DNA from: Chitinophagaceae bacterium | GTDB taxonomy: Bacteria; Bacteroidota; Bacteroidia; Chitinophagales; UBA10324 | Reading direction: 5' to 3' | Assembly: GCA_947474435.1 (NCBI GenBank) | Contig: CANJII010000019.1 | Span: 1-64,000 of the forward strand | Length of the DNA: 64,000 nucleotides | Shown here: positions 7,327 to 36,624 of the stretch, piece by piece | Position numbering within the stretch: position 1 is the first letter of the stretch | How the letters are laid out: each line of letters starts with the position of its first letter | Notes under the pieces: model-generated | What the model saw: the letters and a program-made list of their open reading frames with translations, nothing else | Told to the model about the DNA's origin: nothing | Database searches by the model: none | Translations under genes and position numbers: made by a program

Positions 7327-7668
7327 GCAGTGAAATATTCCGGCGAAATATAAAACAGAATTATTTCCTGCCTTGTCGCTGGAGTAAATTTTGTCAAACC
7401 ATTGTCATTATTGAGTTACAGAACAATAAACCGGAACGCGATCCGTTAATTTTGTAACAACAAGCGCATTTTCATGAACCCTGTTTTTCACCTGCTGCTT
7501 TTTTTTACAACTGAAATTATCACAAGGCCGAAGGGATGCATCTGTTCTGCATTGTTTCCGTTCTGGCAATACGATTTCAAACACCTGTCGCCCATTCAGC
7601 ACGATCATTCTCCGCCCGCACGGTTACGGTGGCGGCAGCGTGTACTGTAACTGCTGCGGTTGAGTTGG

Positions 7669-7691
7669 TGTTTCCGTCGGAAGCGGAAACA
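7669..7691. repeat. Hairpin, 8-bp stem TGTTTCCG/CGGAAACA
   Basis: Perfect 8-bp inverted repeat (7669-7676 with 7684-7691) around a 7-base loop. Same word pair as the longer hairpin at 7816-7838. Confidence 0.7.
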
Positions 7692-7815
7692 GTAACCACG
7701 GTTCCGGAAATGCTTCCGCGGTTTGCGGTAACAGTTACCGGAGTGTTGCGGCGGTTTCCGCATCATGGGTGGCTGTTCCCGGATGTTACGCGTTGCTTTG
7801 AGGCAGTCCGGTGAA

Positions 7816-7838
7816 TGTTTCCGGAAATACCGGAAACA
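7816..7838. repeat. Hairpin, 9-bp stem TGTTTCCGG/CCGGAAACA
   Basis: Perfect 9-bp inverted repeat (7816-7824 with 7830-7838) with loop AAATA. It is the strongest of several hairpins in the GC-rich region; no T-run follows, so it does not look like a terminator. Confidence 0.75.
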
Positions 7839-7845
7839 GAAACAT

Positions 7846-7908
7846 AACTTCCGGAACTGTTTCCGCAACTTCCGGAACGGTTCCCGCAACTTCCGGAACG
7901 GTTTCCGT
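7846..7908. repeat. Three tandem copies of a 21-bp unit
   Basis: Units 7846-7866, 7867-7887 and 7888-7908, each beginning AACTTCCGGAAC and differing at only two or three positions. Each unit contains the palindrome TTCCGGAA. The 21-bp length is a multiple of three, but the frames through it do not resemble a known protein. Confidence 0.8.
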
Positions 7909-8071
7909 TACTTACGGTAACAGCAACGGTTAGTCCGCAACAAACAGCAGTCACCACTGAATCAGTTGAATTTCCCGGCTGCCTTTCAGTCCCGCACACC
8001 CGATCCGCAACCTCATTCATCAGAAGCCGGTTGCCGGAGGGAAAATTTTTTTCACTTTAAATTTCTTAAAA

Positions 8072-8752
8072 ATGACACAGGATATAATCCCCCGCAAAGA
8101 CGGGGAGTTCAACGACATGCAGAACCTGCTCATGGCAGGCATTACTGCAAACGCGGTGTTGTGGGGCATACCTGCCGGCGAAATCACTACCGGCACTGCT
8201 TTGCAATTGCTGTGGATACCGGGGTACAGCGCAGTCATCGATCCCGCCACTAAAACCAAGGCTACAGTGAATACTAAAAATGCGATACGCAAAAAGTATG
8301 AATTGTGGATGCGTCCCTTTGTTCAGCGATACCTGATGCTGAACACCGCCCTGGACGATGGCGAACGGATTGCCATGGGCTTGCGTCCCCGCGAAACCGG
8401 GCGCTCTGTTATTCCGCCTCCCGAAACCACTGTTCAGTTAGATCTGGTGGCCGGGCATGGTAACACGGTAAAGGTAATTTTCCGTCAGGAAGCCGACGGC
8501 GATGGTAACACAAGGCGTGGCAAGCCCGATGGCGTTAACAATTGCGAGTTTGCTTACAAAGTGGATGCACCCGCACCTGTTTCGCCCGACGATTGTGTGG
8601 TTGGCAAAATTGCATCGCGCAGCCCCCTTGTCATCAGTTTTGAACCTGAGCAGGCCGGCAAGCGATTGTATGTTTTTGCCCGCTGGCTCAATGCCAAGGA
8701 CGAGGCAGGGCCCTGGACTCCTGTTCCGGCGTCCATCATTATTCCAGGTTAA
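8072..8752 (+). CDS. Uncharacterised 226-aa protein with C-terminal fibronectin-III-like domain
   Basis: Soluble protein without signal peptide or membrane segment. The N-terminus (IPRKDGEFNDMQNLL, residues 5-19) and the C-terminal half (about 115-226, with KPDGVNNCEFAYKVD and LYVFARWLNAKDEAGPWTPVPASIIIP) resemble, from memory, a family of roughly 200-aa proteins scattered through Bacteroidota and described only as fibronectin-type-III-like or hypothetical. The middle (about 75-110) is helical and basic. Codons are much GC-richer than in neighbouring genes, and the gene is preceded by the palindromic repeat region and followed by a good terminator, so it looks like an independently acquired cassette. 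The ATG at 8072 follows an AT-rich leader. Function is unknown; a structural or surface-binding role would be a guess. Confidence 0.75.
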   Translation: MTQDIIPRKDGEFNDMQNLLMAGITANAVLWGIPAGEITTGTALQLLWIPGYSAVIDPATKTKATVNTKNAIRKKYELWMRPFVQRYLMLNTALDDGERIAMGLRPRETGRSVIPPPETTVQLDLVAGHGNTVKVIFRQEADGDGNTRRGKPDGVNNCEFAYKVDAPAPVSPDDCVVGKIASRSPLVISFEPEQAGKRLYVFARWLNAKDEAGPWTPVPASIIIPG

Positions 8753-8797
8753 GGAATGCTGATGCCCGACCTAACAGCAGGATTACACTGCTGTTTA

Positions 8798-8832
8798 TCC
8801 CCCGATAATTAATTTTACCGGGGGATTTTTAT
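8798..8832 (+). terminator. Rho-independent terminator after the 226-aa gene
   Basis: Stem TCCCCCG (8798-8804) pairs perfectly with CGGGGGA (8819-8825) and is followed by a run of T. It lies 46 bases after the stop codon at 8752. Confidence 0.85.
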
Positions 8833-10069: not shown

Positions 10070-13000
10070 ATGAATAACATTTTTACGAAACTACTAAAGC
10101 AAACCCGGTCCGCTTGGCTCGTGGTACTTGCTATAGTGCTTTGGAGTAGCGCTTCAATGGCACAGGTTAGTGTTACCGCTACGGCAGGTATACTTGGACC
10201 TACTAATTATGCAACCGTTCAGGCTGCTTTTGCTGCAATTAATGCAGGTACCCATAAGGGAACTATTGTTTTGTCAATCACCGCCAACACAACAGAAACG
10301 ACTCCTGCTGTACAGTTGCTTGCTTCCGGAGTTGGCTTATCGAGCTACACTTCAATAAAAATTACTCCAACAGGAGGTGTTAACAGAGTAATTAACTCTG
10401 CTGCAACTCCGACTGCTTCAAGAGCAATTCTTGAATTTGTTGGTGCTGATAATGTAACCATAGATGGTGACGATGCCGGTGTTGGTGGAACCGCACAAAA
10501 TCTGAGCATCATTGTAGCAACTACAGCTAATGCAAGTACTGCTTGTTTGCGCTTTAGCTCAAGTTCTACTACTACAAATGGTTGCACAGGTTGTACAGTT
10601 AAAAATTGTATTATTACAGGAGGTAGAAACCTTTCAACATCTGGTACCGCATCATATGGTATTTTTTGCGGATTGAGTACAGCTGCATCCACAATTACCA
10701 CTCTTTCCGGTTCTGCGGATAATGACAACATGACCATTCAAAACAACCTTATTACTAAATGTTTTTATGGAATCTATTGTTATGGCTTAGCTTCTCCTTA
10801 TTTAATGGATAATCTGATTATTAAAGGAAACACTATTGGCCCTGCTACTGCAACTACAAGCAATGTAATTATTGGAATTACGACTGCGAATACACAAATT
10901 GCAGCGTCAGCGGCCTCAGCTCAAATTGATGGTAATGACATTAGTGTTGGAGAAACAGTTTCTGGATACGGTGGTCTTGTTGCCGGCGTTAATGTACTTT
11001 TATCTAATGCAGGGATAATTATTAAGAATAATAAGATTCATGATATTTATAATCCCAGCGCAGGGGGCTGGCAGGCTCATGGTATATCTATTAGTTCTTC
11101 AGCAACAAATAATGGGGGGATTAGTATTTTTAATAACTTTATTTATAAAGTTGTTGCTTATCACTATATTTCCGGTTTATCGCAGTATACAGCTCATGGG
11201 ATTTATATTAGTGTAGGAGCAACTGGTCTGAAGATTGATCATAACTCAATTAACATGAGTACTCCAAACGCAGGTTCTGGAACTATAAACTCATCATTCT
11301 GTTTACTTTCTAATAGCGCTGCTGCAACTTATACATCGTTTCAGAATAATATTCTGGTAAATACTATGTCGGATAATACCCTTCAGTTTTGTGGCTGTGT
11401 TTACTTCGCTGTAACTACTAATGCAAGCTTACCAGTTACAATGGATAAAAATGATTATTATATTACCGGAGCTTCGGGTTATATTGGTGGATTCAACGGA
11501 TTGGTTTATAATACTTTATCAGCCTGGCAAGGTGTTTCTGCAAGAGATGCAGCATCATATAATGTTAATCCTCCTTTCACTTCTGCTACAGACCTTCATA
11601 TTCCAGCTGCTACTATATCTGGTCTTGAATCAGGTGGAAATACATTGGCAGGTGTAACTGTTGATATTGATAATGATGCTCGTCCCGGTCCTGCTGGTTC
11701 AATTAATGGTGGTGCTTCTGCGTCTGATGTTGGTGCCGATGAATTTGATGGTGCTCTTCCAGTATGCGCCGGAACTCCTACTGCAGGTACCATTTCATGT
11801 GCTCCTGCAAGTGTTTGTTATGGTTTAGCTACAACTATGTCTTTGGGCGGCGGTTCATCGTTCCCCGGTACTGCTATTACCAATCAGTGGCAGTATTCAT
11901 CTAATGGTGGCGCTACCTGGACCAACTGGACCGGACAAACCGGTGTTTCATTGGCTATTTTAGTAGTTTCTTCAACTAATCAATATCGTTGTGTGGTTAC
12001 ATGTACTACCACAGGTTTGTTTGCTGCTACTCCCGGTTTTTCTCCGGGTATGACCAGTCCTCCATCTGTGGCTACCATTCCTTACACACAGGATTTCGAA
12101 TCATGGATCAGTGTATGTACTGCTACCGATGCTCCGGATATTTACTCCCGTACCTGCACTCCGTACCTTACACCATTGGCAAATGCCTTAATCAGAAGAG
12201 ACGATGATGTTGCTTCTGTACCTTGGACCAATCCTGCTTTGGGTGGATACAGTCCTGTATCTTTTACAGGAGCTCACTCTGCCCGCTTTCATAAATACAG
12301 TCTTGCTAATACCAATCAGGGTTTCATTGATTTCTGGGTCGATTTAAGTGCAGGAGGTCCTGCCAACCCAACTACCATCATGCTCGATTATATTTGCACA
12401 TCAGGCTTTGCTTATGGTTTAAATGTATCAACTGATAATGGCTTAACATTTACTTTATTAACAGCCAGCCCTTCGTTGATTACTACACCAATCTGGAGAA
12501 CCATTACTTCATCTACAACTGCAAATTCTGCAACCACTTTGTTCCGTATTGTTTTCCAGGCAACAGGTGCAGCTACAACTGATATCGGATTGGATAATCT
12601 CCGTATTTTCCCTGCATGCTCAGGAGCTCCTGCCATGGCAACTATTACTCCTTCTCAAAACCCTGTTTGTGTTGGTACCAATTACCAATTAACAGCCGGT
12701 GGATTGGGTAATACAGGAAACTTCTTTTACGACTGGCAATCATCATTAGATGGTGGTGCTACCTGGCTTGACCTTGGCGGTGGTTTTAATATTTTCTCGG
12801 GTTCACAAGCGGCTGCCACCACTTACCGTGTGCTGGTTACTTGTGTAACATCGGGCTTAACTACCACATCTAATACTTTGTTAATGACCATGTACAGTCC
12901 TGCTTATGTTCCTTATTTTGGTTATACTCAAAATTTTGAATCATGGGTGAGCGCCTGCTCGGTTACCGATGTTCCTTCAGTAAACTGGAAAACAACTCCG

Positions 13001-16000
13001 GCTATAGGCAACAATGCAAGTCCCGGAATTTGCGGATGGAGAAGAGATGATCAGGGTGCCAGCGGAAACTGGTATACACCAGAACTCGCAAATGGTATGT
13101 ATGCACCTGCATTTACAGTAGGCGCACACTCTGCCCGCTTCCATACTTATTCGGTAGCAGCTGGAAACATTGAAAGCATGGATCTTTACATGAACTGTAC
13201 GGGTTCAGGAGGTGCTTTAACCATGACATTCGATTACATCAATACAGGAGGTACTGATCTTCTCAGAATTTATGTTTCAACCAATGGCGGTGCTACATTT
13301 GTTCAATCAGGCGCCAACCTTGGTGTACAGGCTACCTGGGGTAATAAGAGTTTTGCTATTGCTTCGGCATCTGCAACTACCATTATCCGTTTTCAGGCAA
13401 CCGGTGACTGGGGTTTAGATGACATCGGAGTTGATAACCTTGTAATTGTTGGACCTTGTGCAGGTACACCAACTGCAGGTACAGGCACTGCCGCACCGGC
13501 TTCGGTATGTTCAGGAAGCCCTGTTACTTTAACTTTAACCGGTGCTGCCGCAGGATCAGGAATCACTTATCAGTGGCAATCGTCTCCTGATAATATTACC
13601 TGGACCAATATTGGTGGTGCAACCAATTCTGTTTCAGTAATTACTCAGTTGAGCAATAGCTACTATCGTTGCGCTGTAACCTGCGTGCCAAGTACTTCAA
13701 CAGCTTACACAGTGGCTACCCCACAAATTACCACCACTTCTCCTATTACTTACGCTACACTACCTTACACTCAGAGTTTTGAAACTTGGGTTAATGCATG
13801 TGGTGTACTTGATCGTCCGAACGATAACCACTGGCTCACTAATCCTTCTGCAGGTAACACTTCCTGGAAGAGAGAAGATGACGCATCATTGGGTGGAGCG
13901 TTATCAGGCGGTAACTGGACCACAGGTGCTTACGGCGGACCTTCTGCTGTAGCTACTGTTGGTGTTCATGCTGCTAAATTCTACACTTATCTTGCAACAG
14001 CAGGATTGAGCGGTATAATGGATTTGTATATTGATTGTTCAACTTCCGGTGGAGCTATTGGTGTTTCTTATGATATGATTAATCATAACGACGCTGCCGC
14101 AGGATTCCCCGGATATGATTTAGATATATTGGAAGTTTGGGGTTCAACCGATGGCGGAGGAACATTCTCTTTATTGCAAAGCACACAAGGTGCTCCGGGA
14201 TGGACTTCAAAGAATCTTTCTTATGTTACTTCTTCGGCTACTACTGTTATCAGATTCAAGGCTACTTCAGATTTTGGTTACACCAATATCGGATTGGATA
14301 ATGTAAGTGTTGGACCTACCTGCAGCGGAACACCAGTTGCCGGAACCATCAACACCTCTGCTAATCCGGTTTGCGATGGGGCTACTTCATTCACTTTATC
14401 ATTAACCGGTGCCACCAATGGTGGAGGAATTGTTTTCCAGTGGCAATCTGCTGCTGTGAATGTATCCGGATCGTTTACAGATATTGTTGGTGCTACTAAC
14501 AGTTCTTATACCGGAGTTCAGGCAACTCCAAGCTGGTATCGTTGCGTTGTAACCTGTACCAATGGCGGAGCATCTGCTACACAGGGTGCCGGTGCTACTT
14601 TGAACGAAACAATGGTTGCAGGCGCTTCTTACGCTGCATTGCCATATTCTCAGAGCTTTGAAGCATGGACAACCAATTGTGCAACCACTGACCGACCAGG
14701 AGCAAACTGGTTAAACTCACCTTACACAGGAGACAATTCATGGCGCAGAGACGACCAGGGAGCATCAGCTTCATGGGCGTTTAATGCTGGTGCCTATACT
14801 CCTGCTTCATCAATAGGAGCGCACTCAGCTCGTTTTGATACTTATTCTGCTTCATTTGGCACAACGGGAGATTTGGATTTGTATGTAAATGCAACCGGAT
14901 CAGGCGGTAACATTGGTTTATCATTCGATTTTACCAATGCTGCCGACGGCGATGTTGACTACATGCGTATTGATTATTCAACTGATGGCGGTTCAACCTT
15001 TACTACAGGTCTGGCTACTTTAGGTCAGACAGGTGCATGGGCAGGTTACAATTACCTGATTCCTTCTTCATCGGCTACCACTATTATCCGTTTCCATTGC
15101 TGGTCTGATTTCGGATTGTCTGATATGGGATTGGATAATGTAGCTGTAGCTTTATCATGTTCAGGTACACCTGCTCCGGGAGCCACACTTTCAAGTTCAG
15201 GCATCGGAGTTTGTCCGGCTACACCATTCACTTTATCAACAGCCAATAACATGAGTTCCCCGGGTATTACCTTTCAGTGGCAATCTGCTCCTGTTCCCGG
15301 ATTACCTGCATCTTATACCAACATTGCCGGTGCTACCAATTCAACTTACGCGGGTTCACAACTTGTTGAAACCTACTACAGGTGCTATATTGTTTGTACC
15401 AATGGTGGTGGAAACGCTACTTCAACCGCGCTTGATTTGATCATGAATCCTTTCTACCTGTGTTACGGGGTACCTGGTAACGGAGGAACCTGTTTTGAGG
15501 ATATTACTAATGTTACCTTGAATACAATAAACAACAATACTACTTGTTCGCCAAACAATTATTCACAACAGGCAGCAACTACATCGTTGCAACAAGGAAG
15601 TAATTATGTGGGTTCAATGACTACTGACGGATTTTGGGGTAATGCAATTACCGGTGTTTGGATTGATTACAACCAAAACGGTGTTTTTGATGTTACAGAA
15701 TTCTGTACTCCGCAGCCAATGACCAATGCCACATCAGGTGTAATAACTGTGAATGTGCCTATTACAGCAACAGTTGGTTTAACAGGCATGCGTGTTCGTT
15801 CAAACTGGTCAATTTATACAATGACAGCCTCAGACGCAGGAACTCCTTCTTTTGAAGGCGAAACTGAAGATTATGTGATTACAATTACAGCAGCTCCTCT
15901 TTGTTCAGGAACCCCTGCAGCTTCTACCACAGTATCTTCGGCTAACCCAACTGCGATTGGTGGTTCTTACACATTAAGTTTAACCGGATTAGGTTTATCA

Positions 16001-19000
16001 GGATTATTATTCCAATGGCAATCATCTGGTGATAATGTTACCTGGACTGATGTTAGTGGTGCTACCAATACTACTTATTCAAGTGTTGGAACAGTAAATA
16101 CTTACTACCGTTGTTTGGTAAAATGCTCAGTAAGTGGTTTGTCTACTCCATCAACTTCATTGCTTCAGAAAGTTAATCCTTACTGTACTCCGTTCTATTC
16201 TTCAGGATCAGGTGCTGGCGATTACATTTCGAGAGTGCAGATTGAAGATAATAGCGGTTCAACAGTATTGAATTACGGTACGGCTGGTTCTGGTGTTTCG
16301 CCTTATTACAATGATTATACTGTTTTGGCTCCTAATCCTGATATTCAGGCAGGATCTTTCTTCTGGTTAAAAGCCAATCCCGGAACATGGCTTGGTTATA
16401 TTGTGATGCAGGCTTGGGTTGACTGGAATAATGATGGAGATTTTTATGATGGAGGTGAGTGGGTTACTTATCAGAGCAGTCAGGTTACTACCCAGGCAAT
16501 GGGAACTATAGGAGGAACAGCAAACACAGGTAAAATTTACTGTGAAGTTCCAAGTATCGGTGCTTATCCTGGTGGTGGAGTTGTTGCATTAGGTACTCAC
16601 AGAATGCGTGTTCGTTACCTTGATATCGTTTCTCAGGGAGTGGGTTCGTTCCCAATGGATCCTTGCGGTACTTACATCTGGGGTGAAACAGAAGATTATG
16701 ATTTAAATCTTGTTTCAACATGTACAGTTGCTTCTGCAGCCTCTCAGGTAACAAGTTTCGTTCCCGGTCAAACAACTGTGAATGATAGAATTCAGGTTAC
16801 TTTGTCAAGCCCTTCAGTTGGTGGATTAAAGAAGTTTGAATATTCTTCAAGCCCGACTTTCGCTACTGTTGATGGTCAGTTTATCGAGTATGGAATGACT
16901 ACCTCTACAACTCCATCATTTGTTGACAATGTAAATTTGGGTCAGATTTATGTTCGTGGTGTTTACCAGAATGAAGGATGTGCAGTTGATAATACTCAAA
17001 CCATGTTGATTAAAACTTCCTGTGCTCCTGAGTTGTTCTTCTGGACCAACAGAACTTTAACACCATACCTTCCATCATATGTTCATGATTACATTTCAAA
17101 TGTAAAAATCAGCATTGGTGCTACTAATTACCTGAATAACACATCAGCTTACCAAAACGATGGTTATAATGATTTCACTTACATTTCTGCCAACCTTGAC
17201 AGATCTGTAACCTATACAATCAGTACAACCTGTAACGGTGCCGGAGCTGCTTATTCTGCATCAAGAGCTGCATGGTTAGATTACAATGGTGACGGAGTTT
17301 TGCAAGCATCAGAAAACATTTACCTGTCTCCGGCAACCGGAGGAGTAAATTCAGGAACCTTAACCGGAACCTTTAGCATACCTTGCGGTAATGCGTTTGT
17401 TGGTGATGTTATTTTGAGAATAATGGCGGTGTACGACAATCCGTTTGGTACAGGAGTTTACACTTTCTTGACAGCTAACCCATGTACAGGAGGATTTTAT
17501 TATGGAGAAATTGAAGAATACAGTGTTCACATCAATGAAATTCCTGAGTTGATTGTAAGTCCTGCCGCTTCTGTTTGTGCAGGAACTTCTGCTACCCTGA
17601 AAGTTACAGGACCTACAGCAGGAGCTGTAGTTGCCGGTGCAGGTCCTTATACATGGACATGGTTACCAACAACTTCATCGTTGAGTATTAATCCAACCAA
17701 CCTCAATCAGAATACCGTTGCTAATGCTCCGATAAATACATTCTACACTGTTACAGGTTTGTTAAGCAACTCATGTACAGCAACTACCGTTGTTCCGGTT
17801 ACTACTGTTCCGTTAGCCGGAGCTGTTACACCGCTTGGATCAGTAGTTTGCACTGGTGGATCTCAGGTACTTGTTGCTCTTGGTGCCGCCGGATTGTATC
17901 AGTGGCAGTATTCAGATGACAACACTATCTGGAATAACATTCCAGGTGCTACGAATACTACTTATTCTACCGCTGCATTTGCAACACCAAATAAGAGGTA
18001 TTATCGTTTGATTACCTTGTCGCCAAACTGTTATGATCTTGCATCAAATACAGTTACAGTAGAATTATTCACAACACCTGTAGTTACAATCTCAAGTGTA
18101 ACTTCAACCAGTTTTATTGTGGATTGGACACCAGCAGGAGGTGGTAATTTCTCTGTTACAATTCCAGGGGCTCCGGGATCGCCATACCTACTTGCTATGC
18201 CTCCATTATCAGTTAGCGGGTTGGCACCAAATACCAACTATGCTGCAACTGTAACCAAAACATCTTTACCTGCATGTCTTCCAAACACACCTGGAACCGC
18301 AACGGCTAAAACTTTGTGTGCAACTGCTCCAGCTCCAACATTTGGTGCAACCACAAATGGAACTACTGTTGTAAACATTCCAAGTGGAGGTCCTTCGTAC
18401 AAGGTGTTCTACAAATTTATTACCTTGTATAATAACTATTTGTCATCACCAACTTGTTTGGCTCCCGGTTCAACCTACACCATTACTTCACAATGGTCAG
18501 GTGTACCGATTTCAGTGTACTTACAGGCATGCGATTGCCCAACAGTAGGATTGATGGGTCAGGCAGGACCAGCGGTAATTAAATACTTGTTGCCAGGGTC
18601 AAGCACATGCGCTTCACCAACAGGTCCTCTTGGTGTTGGTTTGTTTACAACAGGTAATGTTGTTTCTGATTGCCCTAACCGCATAAAAGTTGAATTAGGC
18701 GGAAGTCCAACCAATAACTACCGTGTAACCTTCCAGCGATTGTTGCCAACATTTGCAGCAGCAAATACTTACCCTGTTTCATATAGCGGAATAATGAGCT
18801 ATACAGTAATGAACACACCATTGCCACAAGTTTGGCAGGTATGGGTAGTATCAGCATGCGGAATTGGAGGAACACCTCCATATTCAGTAATGTCAGAAGT
18901 AGTTCAGGTGACAGTAAAATCAGGATGTAACAAGATTCAGAATCTTGTATTGAGTCATCCAACCTGTCATGGATTTACAGCTACATGGAATGCAGGAGAT

Positions 19001-19543
19001 TGCGGATTACCAACAACCAATCTATTGGGTTATTCAGCCTTCGTTAAGGTTGGAGCATCAAACTGGAATGGCTATGCAGCACCAACCAATGTTAAAACCG
19101 GAGCAATCTGGGGATCAGGAGTAACCATTCAGGTTTATGTAAGAGCAAACTCTTGCAACAACTCGTTTGGTCCTGCATCAGATATTCAAACCATTACTAC
19201 ACTTTCAGGTGCAGGTTGCCGCGAGGAAGACCAGCAGGTTGAAGAGAGTTTGAATCATGATGGCATTACCAATGAATTCGGAACACTGAGTGTATATCCA
19301 AACCCAAATCAGGGCCAGTTTGTAATGGACCTTCAAATGGGAGATTTAACTTCTCAGGATGTACGGATTGATGTGATGAACATGTTGGGACAAGTAGTTT
19401 ATACACAAATCACCAACATCAGCGATGGACATATTACTGAAGGTATAGCATTATCGGAATCAATTGCTTCCGGTAACTATATGGTTCGTGTAATGGCAGG
19501 CGACAAAGCTGTCTTTAACACACGGATTAACATCAGCAAGTAA
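10070..19543 (+). CDS. Giant modular T9SS-secreted surface protein (3157 aa)
   Basis: Very large secreted, adhesin-like protein. Signal peptide 1-32 (ends SSASMAQ). Residues about 33-555 read as a right-handed beta-helix-like region. From about 566 to 1700 an Ig-like unit (C.GTP.AGT ... QWQSS ... YYRC.VTC) alternates with a jelly-roll unit that begins YTQSFE.W and ends IGLDN; four pairs are visible. Three GEVED-type domains follow (about 1804-1940, 2037-2213, 2317-2490; each with a D-rich WIDYNQNGVFD-like loop and GETEDY end), separated by Ig/fibronectin-like segments. Residues about 3075-3157 are a type A sorting domain (VYPNPNQGQFVMDL, then MNMLGQVVY). It is the second gene of a two-gene unit ended by a strong terminator. 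The ligand is unknown; adhesion or surface-layer function is inferred. Confidence 0.9.
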   Translation: MNNIFTKLLKQTRSAWLVVLAIVLWSSASMAQVSVTATAGILGPTNYATVQAAFAAINAGTHKGTIVLSITANTTETTPAVQLLASGVGLSSYTSIKITPTGGVNRVINSAATPTASRAILEFVGADNVTIDGDDAGVGGTAQNLSIIVATTANASTACLRFSSSSTTTNGCTGCTVKNCIITGGRNLSTSGTASYGIFCGLSTAASTITTLSGSADNDNMTIQNNLITKCFYGIYCYGLASPYLMDNLIIKGNTIGPATATTSNVIIGITTANTQIAASAASAQIDGNDISVGETVSGYGGLVAGVNVLLSNAGIIIKNNKIHDIYNPSAGGWQAHGISISSSATNNGGISIFNNFIYKVVAYHYISGLSQYTAHGIYISVGATGLKIDHNSINMSTPNAGSGTINSSFCLLSNSAAATYTSFQNNILVNTMSDNTLQFCGCVYFAVTTNASLPVTMDKNDYYITGASGYIGGFNGLVYNTLSAWQGVSARDAASYNVNPPFTSATDLHIPAATISGLESGGNTLAGVTVDIDNDARPGPAGSINGGASASDVGADEFDGALPVCAGTPTAGTISCAPASVCYGLATTMSLGGGSSFPGTAITNQWQYSSNGGATWTNWTGQTGVSLAILVVSSTNQYRCVVTCTTTGLFAATPGFSPGMTSPPSVATIPYTQDFESWISVCTATDAPDIYSRTCTPYLTPLANALIRRDDDVASVPWTNPALGGYSPVSFTGAHSARFHKYSLANTNQGFIDFWVDLSAGGPANPTTIMLDYICTSGFAYGLNVSTDNGLTFTLLTASPSLITTPIWRTITSSTTANSATTLFRIVFQATGAATTDIGLDNLRIFPACSGAPAMATITPSQNPVCVGTNYQLTAGGLGNTGNFFYDWQSSLDGGATWLDLGGGFNIFSGSQAAATTYRVLVTCVTSGLTTTSNTLLMTMYSPAYVPYFGYTQNFESWVSACSVTDVPSVNWKTTPAIGNNASPGICGWRRDDQGASGNWYTPELANGMYAPAFTVGAHSARFHTYSVAAGNIESMDLYMNCTGSGGALTMTFDYINTGGTDLLRIYVSTNGGATFVQSGANLGVQATWGNKSFAIASASATTIIRFQATGDWGLDDIGVDNLVIVGPCAGTPTAGTGTAAPASVCSGSPVTLTLTGAAAGSGITYQWQSSPDNITWTNIGGATNSVSVITQLSNSYYRCAVTCVPSTSTAYTVATPQITTTSPITYATLPYTQSFETWVNACGVLDRPNDNHWLTNPSAGNTSWKREDDASLGGALSGGNWTTGAYGGPSAVATVGVHAAKFYTYLATAGLSGIMDLYIDCSTSGGAIGVSYDMINHNDAAAGFPGYDLDILEVWGSTDGGGTFSLLQSTQGAPGWTSKNLSYVTSSATTVIRFKATSDFGYTNIGLDNVSVGPTCSGTPVAGTINTSANPVCDGATSFTLSLTGATNGGGIVFQWQSAAVNVSGSFTDIVGATNSSYTGVQATPSWYRCVVTCTNGGASATQGAGATLNETMVAGASYAALPYSQSFEAWTTNCATTDRPGANWLNSPYTGDNSWRRDDQGASASWAFNAGAYTPASSIGAHSARFDTYSASFGTTGDLDLYVNATGSGGNIGLSFDFTNAADGDVDYMRIDYSTDGGSTFTTGLATLGQTGAWAGYNYLIPSSSATTIIRFHCWSDFGLSDMGLDNVAVALSCSGTPAPGATLSSSGIGVCPATPFTLSTANNMSSPGITFQWQSAPVPGLPASYTNIAGATNSTYAGSQLVETYYRCYIVCTNGGGNATSTALDLIMNPFYLCYGVPGNGGTCFEDITNVTLNTINNNTTCSPNNYSQQAATTSLQQGSNYVGSMTTDGFWGNAITGVWIDYNQNGVFDVTEFCTPQPMTNATSGVITVNVPITATVGLTGMRVRSNWSIYTMTASDAGTPSFEGETEDYVITITAAPLCSGTPAASTTVSSANPTAIGGSYTLSLTGLGLSGLLFQWQSSGDNVTWTDVSGATNTTYSSVGTVNTYYRCLVKCSVSGLSTPSTSLLQKVNPYCTPFYSSGSGAGDYISRVQIEDNSGSTVLNYGTAGSGVSPYYNDYTVLAPNPDIQAGSFFWLKANPGTWLGYIVMQAWVDWNNDGDFYDGGEWVTYQSSQVTTQAMGTIGGTANTGKIYCEVPSIGAYPGGGVVALGTHRMRVRYLDIVSQGVGSFPMDPCGTYIWGETEDYDLNLVSTCTVASAASQVTSFVPGQTTVNDRIQVTLSSPSVGGLKKFEYSSSPTFATVDGQFIEYGMTTSTTPSFVDNVNLGQIYVRGVYQNEGCAVDNTQTMLIKTSCAPELFFWTNRTLTPYLPSYVHDYISNVKISIGATNYLNNTSAYQNDGYNDFTYISANLDRSVTYTISTTCNGAGAAYSASRAAWLDYNGDGVLQASENIYLSPATGGVNSGTLTGTFSIPCGNAFVGDVILRIMAVYDNPFGTGVYTFLTANPCTGGFYYGEIEEYSVHINEIPELIVSPAASVCAGTSATLKVTGPTAGAVVAGAGPYTWTWLPTTSSLSINPTNLNQNTVANAPINTFYTVTGLLSNSCTATTVVPVTTVPLAGAVTPLGSVVCTGGSQVLVALGAAGLYQWQYSDDNTIWNNIPGATNTTYSTAAFATPNKRYYRLITLSPNCYDLASNTVTVELFTTPVVTISSVTSTSFIVDWTPAGGGNFSVTIPGAPGSPYLLAMPPLSVSGLAPNTNYAATVTKTSLPACLPNTPGTATAKTLCATAPAPTFGATTNGTTVVNIPSGGPSYKVFYKFITLYNNYLSSPTCLAPGSTYTITSQWSGVPISVYLQACDCPTVGLMGQAGPAVIKYLLPGSSTCASPTGPLGVGLFTTGNVVSDCPNRIKVELGGSPTNNYRVTFQRLLPTFAAANTYPVSYSGIMSYTVMNTPLPQVWQVWVVSACGIGGTPPYSVMSEVVQVTVKSGCNKIQNLVLSHPTCHGFTATWNAGDCGLPTTNLLGYSAFVKVGASNWNGYAAPTNVKTGAIWGSGVTIQVYVRANSCNNSFGPASDIQTITTLSGAGCREEDQQVEESLNHDGITNEFGTLSVYPNPNQGQFVMDLQMGDLTSQDVRIDVMNMLGQVVYTQITNISDGHITEGIALSESIASGNYMVRVMAGDKAVFNTRINISK

Positions 19544-34302: not shown

Positions 34303-36624
34303 TTATTTCAGTACAGTCAATTTCATATTAAATAATTCTCCTTTTTCATTTTTAATGACTAAGAAGTATAAACTGTTTGTAAAGTTATTTAATGAAATTA
34401 TTTTACTGTTATTTGATTGTTCTAATTGTATTTCATTTTCTTTTTGCCCGAGCAAATTATATATAGTGCAAATACAATCATCTGATAATTTATATTGTAT
34501 ATGTAAAATTTCAGACGAAGGGTTTGGATAAATTAATATTGAATTAAAATAAGTTGATTCATTTATTCCAGTGATAAATGGAATACATTCTGAAGTATCA
34601 ACGCAATTATCGGTGCTGATAATGACTGCATAAATGCCGGAAACAGAAGGCACGAAATAATGGTCGGTAGCTCCTGATATAAGTTGATTTGAATTACAAT
34701 CGTACCACTGCATTATACCGCTATCATATGAAAAAAGTGTATCGTTATATTGTTGAATGGTTGTGTTTATTGAATCAACTGTTAATTCCAAAGAAAGAAT
34801 GGAATCGCAATTATTTGATATTAAAAGAGTGTCGTAATAAATGCCGGATTCAAAAAGATTCATATCATTAAAATAAAAGATGTCGCCCTTGCATATTGTT
34901 TCAACTTGTGAATTTATAATTGGCAAAACTACAGTTAAAGAAAGATTAATAATTGAATCGCACCCGTATGTTGAAATCAGTGTGTCGGAATAAATTCCTG
35001 TTGAAGTAAGTTGTTGTCCATTAAAATAATAATTGTTGCCGGCGCATGTAAACTCAACTTGTGAATTAATAATTGAAGGGAGTACGGTTAAAGAAAGATT
35101 AACAATTGAATCGCATCCGTATATTGAATTAAGTGTATCAGAATAAATTCCGGTTGATGTAAGCGGTTGACCTGTAAAATAATAGCTGCTGCCAGAGCAA
35201 ATATATTCAGTTAATAAAGTTGGTGCTGCTTCATTTATGAAAAGAGGATTTTTAAGATAACAGGAACAGATAGGAATTGAAATGGTATCATTCAATACTG
35301 ATCGAATGCTATCTAATTTAAATCGATATTGTTGCAAAACATTTTGATAACAATAAACAGTTACAAGATTTTTCATTTGCAATGAGTCAGTCTGCATGTC
35401 AAATAATTCTTCAGTTGTATCGGTGCAGAAATATTTGTTGTATTGAAAAAACTGATCGCGAAAGGTTCTTACTGCCGGAATACTATCCATCGGGTAAGCA
35501 GCCATTTGCTCATATAGAAATTCTTTCCGTTTACACTGACCATTCAATACTGCACGCAGTGAAACTCCATCCATATTAAAAGAATCTGCAATGCCGGCAA
35601 CATCCAAAATGGTGGGAGCGAGATCAATGTTCATGGAAAAACTACTGTCAACAATAGTTCCAGCATTGAACCATGGCGGATACCGGATGAGCAACGGAAT
35701 TCGCATGCATTCATCATACGGAAATGATTTTCCATATAATTTATGTTCGCCAAAAAGGTTGCAATTATCAGATGTGAAAATGACCATTGTGTTTTCAAGA
35801 AGCCCGAGATGATCAAGTGAATCGATAATTTTATTTATGCTTTCATCTACTCCTGCCATCATTTCCATATACGATCTCAGTCGATTCTCATATGCATTTA
35901 CTGATAAAAAATAATTTCGAAAATCAAGAGATGAAGGATAATTTACAGTGTATTTTTCAAATGAAGCAGGAACTGGAAAAATTGTGGTGTCAAAAATCCC
36001 TGCAAATTGTTGTTGTGGAATAAGTGGAATATGCGGAGCGTTGTGATTGATTGTTAGATAAAACGGAGTGTCAATTCGCGAAATCAAAGCAAGTGCGCTG
36101 TCGGTTATAAAATCAGTCATGTGGCCGTTAACAATAACAGGATTATTAAAATACCAGCAGGTATCGTTGTAATAGCTTGATTGATTTGGCGACCAGAGCC
36201 AGTAATCAAAATTTGGCTCAGGGTTATGTTGCGCCAACATCCATTTACCAATTAAACCAACAAAATATCCGTTTTGATGTAAAATTTCAGGGAGCAATTT
36301 TACACTGTCATCCGGATAAGTATAATTATCCATTGGTCCGGTTCGATGACCATACATACCTGAATTTATTGCTGTACGAGCAGGCATACATAATGCATTT
36401 GTTGCATAACATTTAAACCGGGCGCCTTCAATTCCAATGCGATCAATGCCGGGAGTTTGTAAAATATTAGTTGAATTTAAAATACTGATGGAGTTCCATG
36501 TCATATCATCAGCAACAATTAAAAGAATATTTGGTCTTGAACTTTGCTGTGCGTTAACTGAATTTACAAACAGCAATAACAATAGCGATATAAATATTGT
36601 TTTTTGTTTAGAAGTTATTTTCAT
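34303..36624 (-). CDS. T9SS-secreted sulfatase
   Basis: 773-aa exported enzyme of the alkaline-phosphatase/sulfatase superfamily that removes sulfate esters from polysaccharides or related substrates. Signal peptide 1-25. The catalytic domain (about 28-450) starts SRPNILLIVADDMTW with metal-binding Asp39/Asp40, has the formylglycine motif at Cys79 (CMPAR, a Cys-x-Pro-x-Arg type), LIGKWML, NHNAPHIPL and FTSDNCNLFGEHKLYGKSFPYDECMRIPLLIRYP. From about 460 come two to three repeats ending GCDSI(V/I)NLSLTV, then an Ig-like segment, and a type A sorting domain (ILIYPNPSSEILHIQY). Activation needs a sulfatase-maturing enzyme, not present in the window. The tail module resembles that of the subtilase at 43913. 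Confidence 0.9.
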   Translation of the reverse strand: MKITSKQKTIFISLLLLLFVNSVNAQQSSRPNILLIVADDMTWNSISILNSTNILQTPGIDRIGIEGARFKCYATNALCMPARTAINSGMYGHRTGPMDNYTYPDDSVKLLPEILHQNGYFVGLIGKWMLAQHNPEPNFDYWLWSPNQSSYYNDTCWYFNNPVIVNGHMTDFITDSALALISRIDTPFYLTINHNAPHIPLIPQQQFAGIFDTTIFPVPASFEKYTVNYPSSLDFRNYFLSVNAYENRLRSYMEMMAGVDESINKIIDSLDHLGLLENTMVIFTSDNCNLFGEHKLYGKSFPYDECMRIPLLIRYPPWFNAGTIVDSSFSMNIDLAPTILDVAGIADSFNMDGVSLRAVLNGQCKRKEFLYEQMAAYPMDSIPAVRTFRDQFFQYNKYFCTDTTEELFDMQTDSLQMKNLVTVYCYQNVLQQYRFKLDSIRSVLNDTISIPICSCYLKNPLFINEAAPTLLTEYICSGSSYYFTGQPLTSTGIYSDTLNSIYGCDSIVNLSLTVLPSIINSQVEFTCAGNNYYFNGQQLTSTGIYSDTLISTYGCDSIINLSLTVVLPIINSQVETICKGDIFYFNDMNLFESGIYYDTLLISNNCDSILSLELTVDSINTTIQQYNDTLFSYDSGIMQWYDCNSNQLISGATDHYFVPSVSGIYAVIISTDNCVDTSECIPFITGINESTYFNSILIYPNPSSEILHIQYKLSDDCICTIYNLLGQKENEIQLEQSNNSKIISLNNFTNSLYFLVIKNEKGELFNMKLTVLK

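Follow-up and report, generated by a model that had tools for sequence, protein, structure and literature searches.

Near the start of the window, a 64,000-nt stretch of a Chitinophagaceae contig that was analysed as a whole, a dense run of TTCCGG words lies ahead of a lone gene for a 226-aa protein. The original prediction took the repeats and the gene for a transferred, self-contained unit. This raises the question of whether the two belong together and, if so, what the repeats might be for.

The locus in the window

The predicted complete gene is present as a single copy in its own 3.5-Mb genome, and it is followed by the strong terminator that had been noticed in the sequence. The terminator has an 8-bp GC-rich stem and a T-run (−17.9 kcal/mol, z −3.8) and was overlooked by a simple scanner because the loop limit of the scanner is 8 nt. 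The predicted shift in composition and codon use is also evident. The GC content of the array is 0.543 against 0.32–0.41 in the flanks, and the coding sequence has a GC of 0.540 and a GC3 of 0.581, whereas the window ORFs of at least 200 aa (n = 31) average 0.376 (sd 0.047) and 0.334 (sd 0.064), respectively. The neighbours are unrelated chromosomal genes encoding a cysteine-desulfurase-like aminotransferase, a TPR membrane protein, a secreted hypothetical protein and a 3157-aa protein. The latter (10070–19543) contains repeated segments and, judged by eye, its C-terminus resembles a type IX secretion sorting signal. A tandem duplication of 153 bp (83% match) is found further along the window at 34901–35184. 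The features of the locus are listed in Table 1.

Table 1. Positions of the locus features in the window
Feature	Position	Strand	Evidence or remark
Intergenic DNA from the divergent TPR-protein gene to the array; expected start of promoter/leader	7327..7621	+	boxA-like motif here in 12/35 same-order relatives
Array of 21-bp units in one register, partly decayed	7622..7936	+	TRF, 21-bp rows, lag self-match
Three best-preserved 21-bp array units	7853..7915	+	
Leader from array end to start codon	7937..8071	+	Median array-ATG distance 85 bp (74 arrays)
Gene for the 226-aa protein, predicted three-helix N-terminal domain and C-terminal fibronectin-III domain	8072..8752	+	ORF, profiles, model
Intrinsic terminator	8797..8830	+	Stem and T-run, folding z

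When written in 21-bp rows, the TTCCGG words fall into one register of about 15 units, several of which are degenerate. TRF reports three units of 21 bp with 92% match at 7846–7907, and the self-match of the locus (L069) at lag 21 is 12 sd above dinucleotide shuffles, which confirms that the repeats ahead of the gene are real. The best units read GGAA-CNGT-TTCC followed by the 9-nt spacer GCAACTTCC. A search of the 3.5-Mb genome with a two-unit pattern returned four places within the array and two scattered places elsewhere, the latter at chance level. The folding energy of the array as RNA lies 4.6 sd below that of dinucleotide shuffles; across the family both strands behave alike. Neither the window array nor those of ten loci matched Rfam.

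A gene family with 21-bp arrays

A search with the single protein recovered a full-length relative (38% identity) and a truncated relic in the genus, and a scan of genome contigs gave no match. Profiles built from the 226-aa protein and its first relatives extended the reach beyond the genus. They matched 14 of 248 genomes of the order, 5 of 395 in a sample of the phylum, 12 of 245 in the class of G397 and 7 of 30 in the family of G144. Pooling yielded 86 distinct full-length members, mostly from Bacteroidota-type genomes; the named loci belong to Candidatus Kapaibacterium, Ignavibacteria, Chloroherpeton, other Bacteroidetes MAGs and one “Armatimonadetes” MAG. The number of copies per genome ranges from zero to about 15, and from none to eight among the related genomes of one genus. 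Eighteen members make up a second, more distant subfamily. In-frame stops occur in several members (L106, L028 and L112), so broken copies are not rare. DNA-methyltransferase-like genes were noticed by eye near two members (L148, 7438–9036; L151, 9428–10897) and are not a conserved context among the loci inspected.

For 84 of the 86 members there was enough upstream DNA to determine the best self-match at lags of 10–100 in the 500 bp ahead of the gene. This lag was 21, 42, 63 or 84 bp in 75 members (about 4% expected by chance), and a multiple of 21 bp was obtained for 10 of 79 downstream controls of 500 bp. The arrays have a median length of 183 bp, or about nine units, and arrays with this period were otherwise rare in the 477 kb searched. 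In 76 of 83 members, as at the window locus, the coding sequence exceeds its flanks in GC. Together with the patchy and often multi-copy distribution, and with a segment shared by within-genome copies that runs from a point ahead of the array or leader to about the stop codon, these results support the predicted self-contained unit. The expectation that homologues always carry a TTCCGG-like array held in part: nine of the 84 members lack a clear array ahead of the gene, which makes “always” an overstatement, and the word itself differs among loci.

In the second subfamily, several members have the array about 250–340 bp upstream. Two members of this subfamily, L092 (1641–1840) and L094 (632–920), which are among the ten positive downstream controls, have a strong 21-bp array downstream of the gene instead. 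In L092 this array is followed by tRNA-like sequences, and in L094 the units read ACGG-ACTC-CCGT, with the same 4-4-4 geometry as described below. A 12-copy tandem array of 21 bp that is 99% perfect (GTGATGTCCCTAAATCAAAAA) was seen at L063 (5089–5346), about 0.65–0.9 kb upstream of an interrupted family member. At L072 part of the upstream stretch appears as N in the genome sequence and the array is not analysable.

The 226-aa protein has no sequence relative in Pfam, NCBIfam, PADLOC or PDB, and the family gave nothing beyond scattered weak matches in Pfam, NCBIfam, PHROGs and PADLOC. A structural model based on an alignment of 48 sequences (pLDDT 93.4, pTM 0.67) predicts three long helices (residues 10–31, 35–56 and 63–89) followed by a sandwich that resembles a fibronectin type III (FN3) domain. 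Foldseek returned many FN3 beta-sandwich matches (E 2.5e-5), and one of 21 members reached the Pfam fn3 profile (E 0.008). The family thus has its C-terminal fold in common with FN3 domain proteins, the definition of which includes neither an N-terminal three-helix domain nor a linked array. As modelled, the combination of three helices and FN3 is no known RNA- or DNA-binding fold.

Constrained geometry and private words

To separate the arrangement of the units from their repetitiveness, we compared the arrays with controls made by permuting their 21 columns, which retains repetitiveness, composition and the relatedness of the units. The best four-pair dyad score was 0.773 against 0.669 ± 0.008 in the column-shuffled arrays, a difference of about 13 sd. 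Pairing peaks at spans 5–11 around an even dyad (z 13.3, against 2.8 for odd palindromes), whereas spans 1 and 3 show no significant excess. Thus, the conserved unit consists of a 4-bp arm, a non-complementary 4-nt centre that is free to vary, a complementary 4-bp arm and a 9-nt spacer. Relative to the control, information is higher in both arms (p 4e-5 each), not in the centre, and lower in the spacer. The spacing between sites is strict (21 in 132 cases, 20 in 6).

The arms differ from locus to locus. Arm pairing is at least 0.7 in 28 of 63 arrays, most of which have a word of their own, such as GGGC..GCCC, GAAT..ATTC, TTAC..GTAA, TCGG..CCGA, GAGG..CCTT, AGCG..CGCT and ACAG..CTGT; about half of the arrays are weakly palindromic. 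Even paralogues within one genome can have unrelated units. The units of L074 and L083 (arms TCGG..CCGA and TTAC..GTAA), with 83% identical coding DNA, agree at 9 of 21 positions and those of L123 and L127, with 74% identical coding DNA, at 8 of 21, and random unit pairs average 9.5 of 21. Among the syntenic orthologues L052, L054 and L073 the arms TTTC..GAAA are largely kept. We therefore reject TTCCGG as a conserved word of the family; what the loci have in common is the geometry alone. Covariation of the arms within arrays appeared significant at first (z 6.4) and disappeared once selection and relatedness were matched in the control.

Taken together, we conclude that a non-coding array with a constrained dyad geometry is tied to one gene family across the phylum and that, in most cases, each locus has its private word.

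Possible roles of the array and related systems

One suggestion of the original prediction was that the array may belong to the leader of the gene. Several arrays end 17–45 bp from the ATG, which leaves little room for a separate promoter in between. In addition, the motif GTTC[AT]TT[GTA], which resembles a boxA of the GTTCTTTGA type, was found between −90 and +10 of the array start in 12 of 35 same-order members and in 3 of 101 control windows (p 4e-6). Two same-order genomes have the same motif in their 16S rRNA leaders, and in one of the two it closely follows a TACCTTTG-type promoter element; the boxA published for a Legionella CRISPR array reads GTTCTTTAAAA (PMC7862264). No boxA is recognisable at the window locus or in two thirds of the relatives. 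Array position and upstream motifs support the view that the array would be transcribed as part of the leader. One member (C4:99366–100100 of contig C4 in G103, locus L139) has a 16S rRNA gene (C4:105357–106881) about 5 kb away.

We propose that the window locus belongs to a previously undescribed kind of array-plus-protein module, in which the array would act as a platform bound by a partner with two-fold symmetry, most probably a dimer or multimer of the encoded protein. We put the probability of this reading at roughly one in three (0.35). A promoter, followed in some relatives by an rRNA-type boxA antitermination site, would give rise to one transcript with about 3–16 array units of 21 nt ahead of the coding sequence of the helical-bundle/FN3 protein. 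As each unit is a palindrome with two 4-bp arms, a 4-nt centre and a 9-nt linker, such a transcript would present a row of small tetraloop hairpins. The RNA may be the active form, the protein would bind its own array, and the outcome could be autoregulation or the assembly of an RNA-protein particle. The private arm word of each locus may, we suggest, keep paralogous modules in one cell from cross-reacting. That these loci represent a new prokaryotic nucleic-acid/protein module, with a hypervariable but geometrically fixed array of 21-nt palindromes, transcription with antitermination, a dedicated helical/FN3 protein and a private word per locus, is a claim we would hold at not far short of even odds. 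Several observations count against the module: the downstream arrays of L092 and L094, the weak palindromes in about half of the arrays and the protein fold, which is not a known nucleic-acid-binding one. Action at the RNA level is further weakened by the missing boxA in two thirds of the relatives, the lack of covariation above control and the lack of a strand preference.

Folding is better than in column-shuffled controls in about 55% of the arrays, equally on both strands (p 0.76). Selection specific to RNA was sought through G.U pairs and left no signal, as arm mismatches of the G.T type (38) are not above those of the A.C type (42). This symmetry fits dyads in DNA, and four-pair RNA hairpins are compatible with it too. 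The array could accordingly consist of double-stranded operator sites for a dimeric protein, either the encoded one or a host regulator, with the sites on one face of the helix and dimers polymerising along the DNA to control the gene. The strict spacing of 21 bp corresponds to two turns of B-DNA. Even-length dyads with an unconstrained centre, as present here, are typical of dimer operators. We consider operators only slightly less probable than the module proposed above. The arrays appear to lie within the transcribed leader, behind a boxA in a third of the same-order cases, which is an odd place for up to 16 operators. Nor was a DNA-binding fold recognised in the protein, and no regulator gene was seen to be common to the neighbours of 13 loci, read as ORFs only.

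A second alternative is that the whole is a mobile or selfish minisatellite cassette, in which the array is a hot spot of recombination or replication slippage that spreads or reshapes the cassette, with the protein as cargo. The behaviour of the copies supports a cassette-like spread. Besides the patchy multi-copy distribution, copies within one genome appear to have array and gene alone in common: the shared segment begins ahead of the array or leader and reaches the stop codon or slightly beyond it (−366 to +659 in L047/L049; −259 to stop in L037/L040). Arrays seem to have been exchanged or rebuilt between paralogues that are 74–83% identical, and L061 lacks the array of its relative L057 in spite of flanks that are 84–88% identical. 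The sister genome G015 contains the neighbouring desulfurase and TPR genes and lacks the cassette; in the stretch compared, synteny does not extend to the other side and the exact empty site is unreadable. All the same, we regard a selfish cassette as improbable. The arms are specifically conserved and are largely kept between the orthologues L052, L054 and L073, and no homologue was found in the viral contigs, phages and plasmids searched. No target-site duplication, terminal repeat or transposon end was seen by eye at the copy borders examined. The guess that the repeats form a recombination site found no support, nor did a known transposon. The geometry of the array does not suggest the attC site of an integron cassette.

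Two further explanations have very little left in their favour. An array coding for a heptad-repeat peptide (21 bp being seven codons) would account for open frames that cross many arrays, in L031 in frame with the gene, and for the excess of open sense frames (60, where column shuffles predict 35), but antisense frames are nearly as numerous (57), the columns vary with a 3-base periodicity (p ≤ 0.05) in 3 of 63 arrays only, the arrays have no sequence in common and the palindromic geometry is left unexplained; we therefore reject a coding minisatellite. Tandem repeats arise by slippage and the window copy is partly decayed, but an ordinary non-functional repeat beside a horizontally acquired gene is contradicted by the survey, in which the same period and geometry recur with unrelated words at 75 of 84 loci across classes and rarely elsewhere in the 477 kb searched.

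The family thus consists of “hypothetical proteins”, up to about 15 per genome, that are physically tied to a DNA feature fixed in geometry and almost free in sequence. A fixed geometry with a private word at each locus is what is expected of orthogonal recognition systems, so each member would come with a predicted ligand and its function would become testable. If the proposed module acts at the RNA level, it would represent a new RNP; if it acts at the DNA level, the loci would be a naturally diversified set of orthogonal pairs of binder and site.

In open-access papers we found no described system with the features of this module, and no described 21-bp array in Bacteroidota, which does not prove its absence. 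CRISPR arrays that follow a boxA leader (Stringer et al., 2020, cited in PMC7862264) likewise combine a tandem array beside a gene, a boxA-like motif ahead of it and a sequence that differs among loci. However, CRISPR-Cas systems have direct repeats with unique spacers, whereas here the whole 21-bp unit is repeated, with arms, centre and linker or spacer columns together. The family members had no match in PADLOC, the neighbours being read only as ORFs. TIGR-Tas (PMC12045711) similarly has short palindromic or stem-loop units beside one protein gene, with a repeat sequence that is constant within a locus and variable between loci. Its guide units are 36 nt long with two variable spacers and its protein has a Nop domain; the present units have a period of 21 nt and no variable spacers, and the Pfam Nop domain is absent from 21 members and from 18 of the second subfamily, in agreement with the three helices and FN3 domain of the model. 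The TAACTGA direct repeats (PMC4679880) are also intergenic, ahead of start codons and patchily distributed, Bacteroidetes included, but they consist of one fixed heptamer with a period of 7 and have no link to a single gene family. Intergenic arrays of short imperfect palindromes are also known from REP/BIME elements with RAYT transposases. In contrast to these dispersed palindromes, each locus here has its word, which is not scattered in the genome of the window, and a Y1-type transposase gene was noticed at one locus only. At this locus (L003, 844–1371 on the minus strand and 1492–1821 on the plus strand), a truncated C-terminal relic of the family adjoins an IS200/REP-associated transposase gene, judged by eye to be of the Y1 type, and the transposase gene is flanked by inverted repeats.
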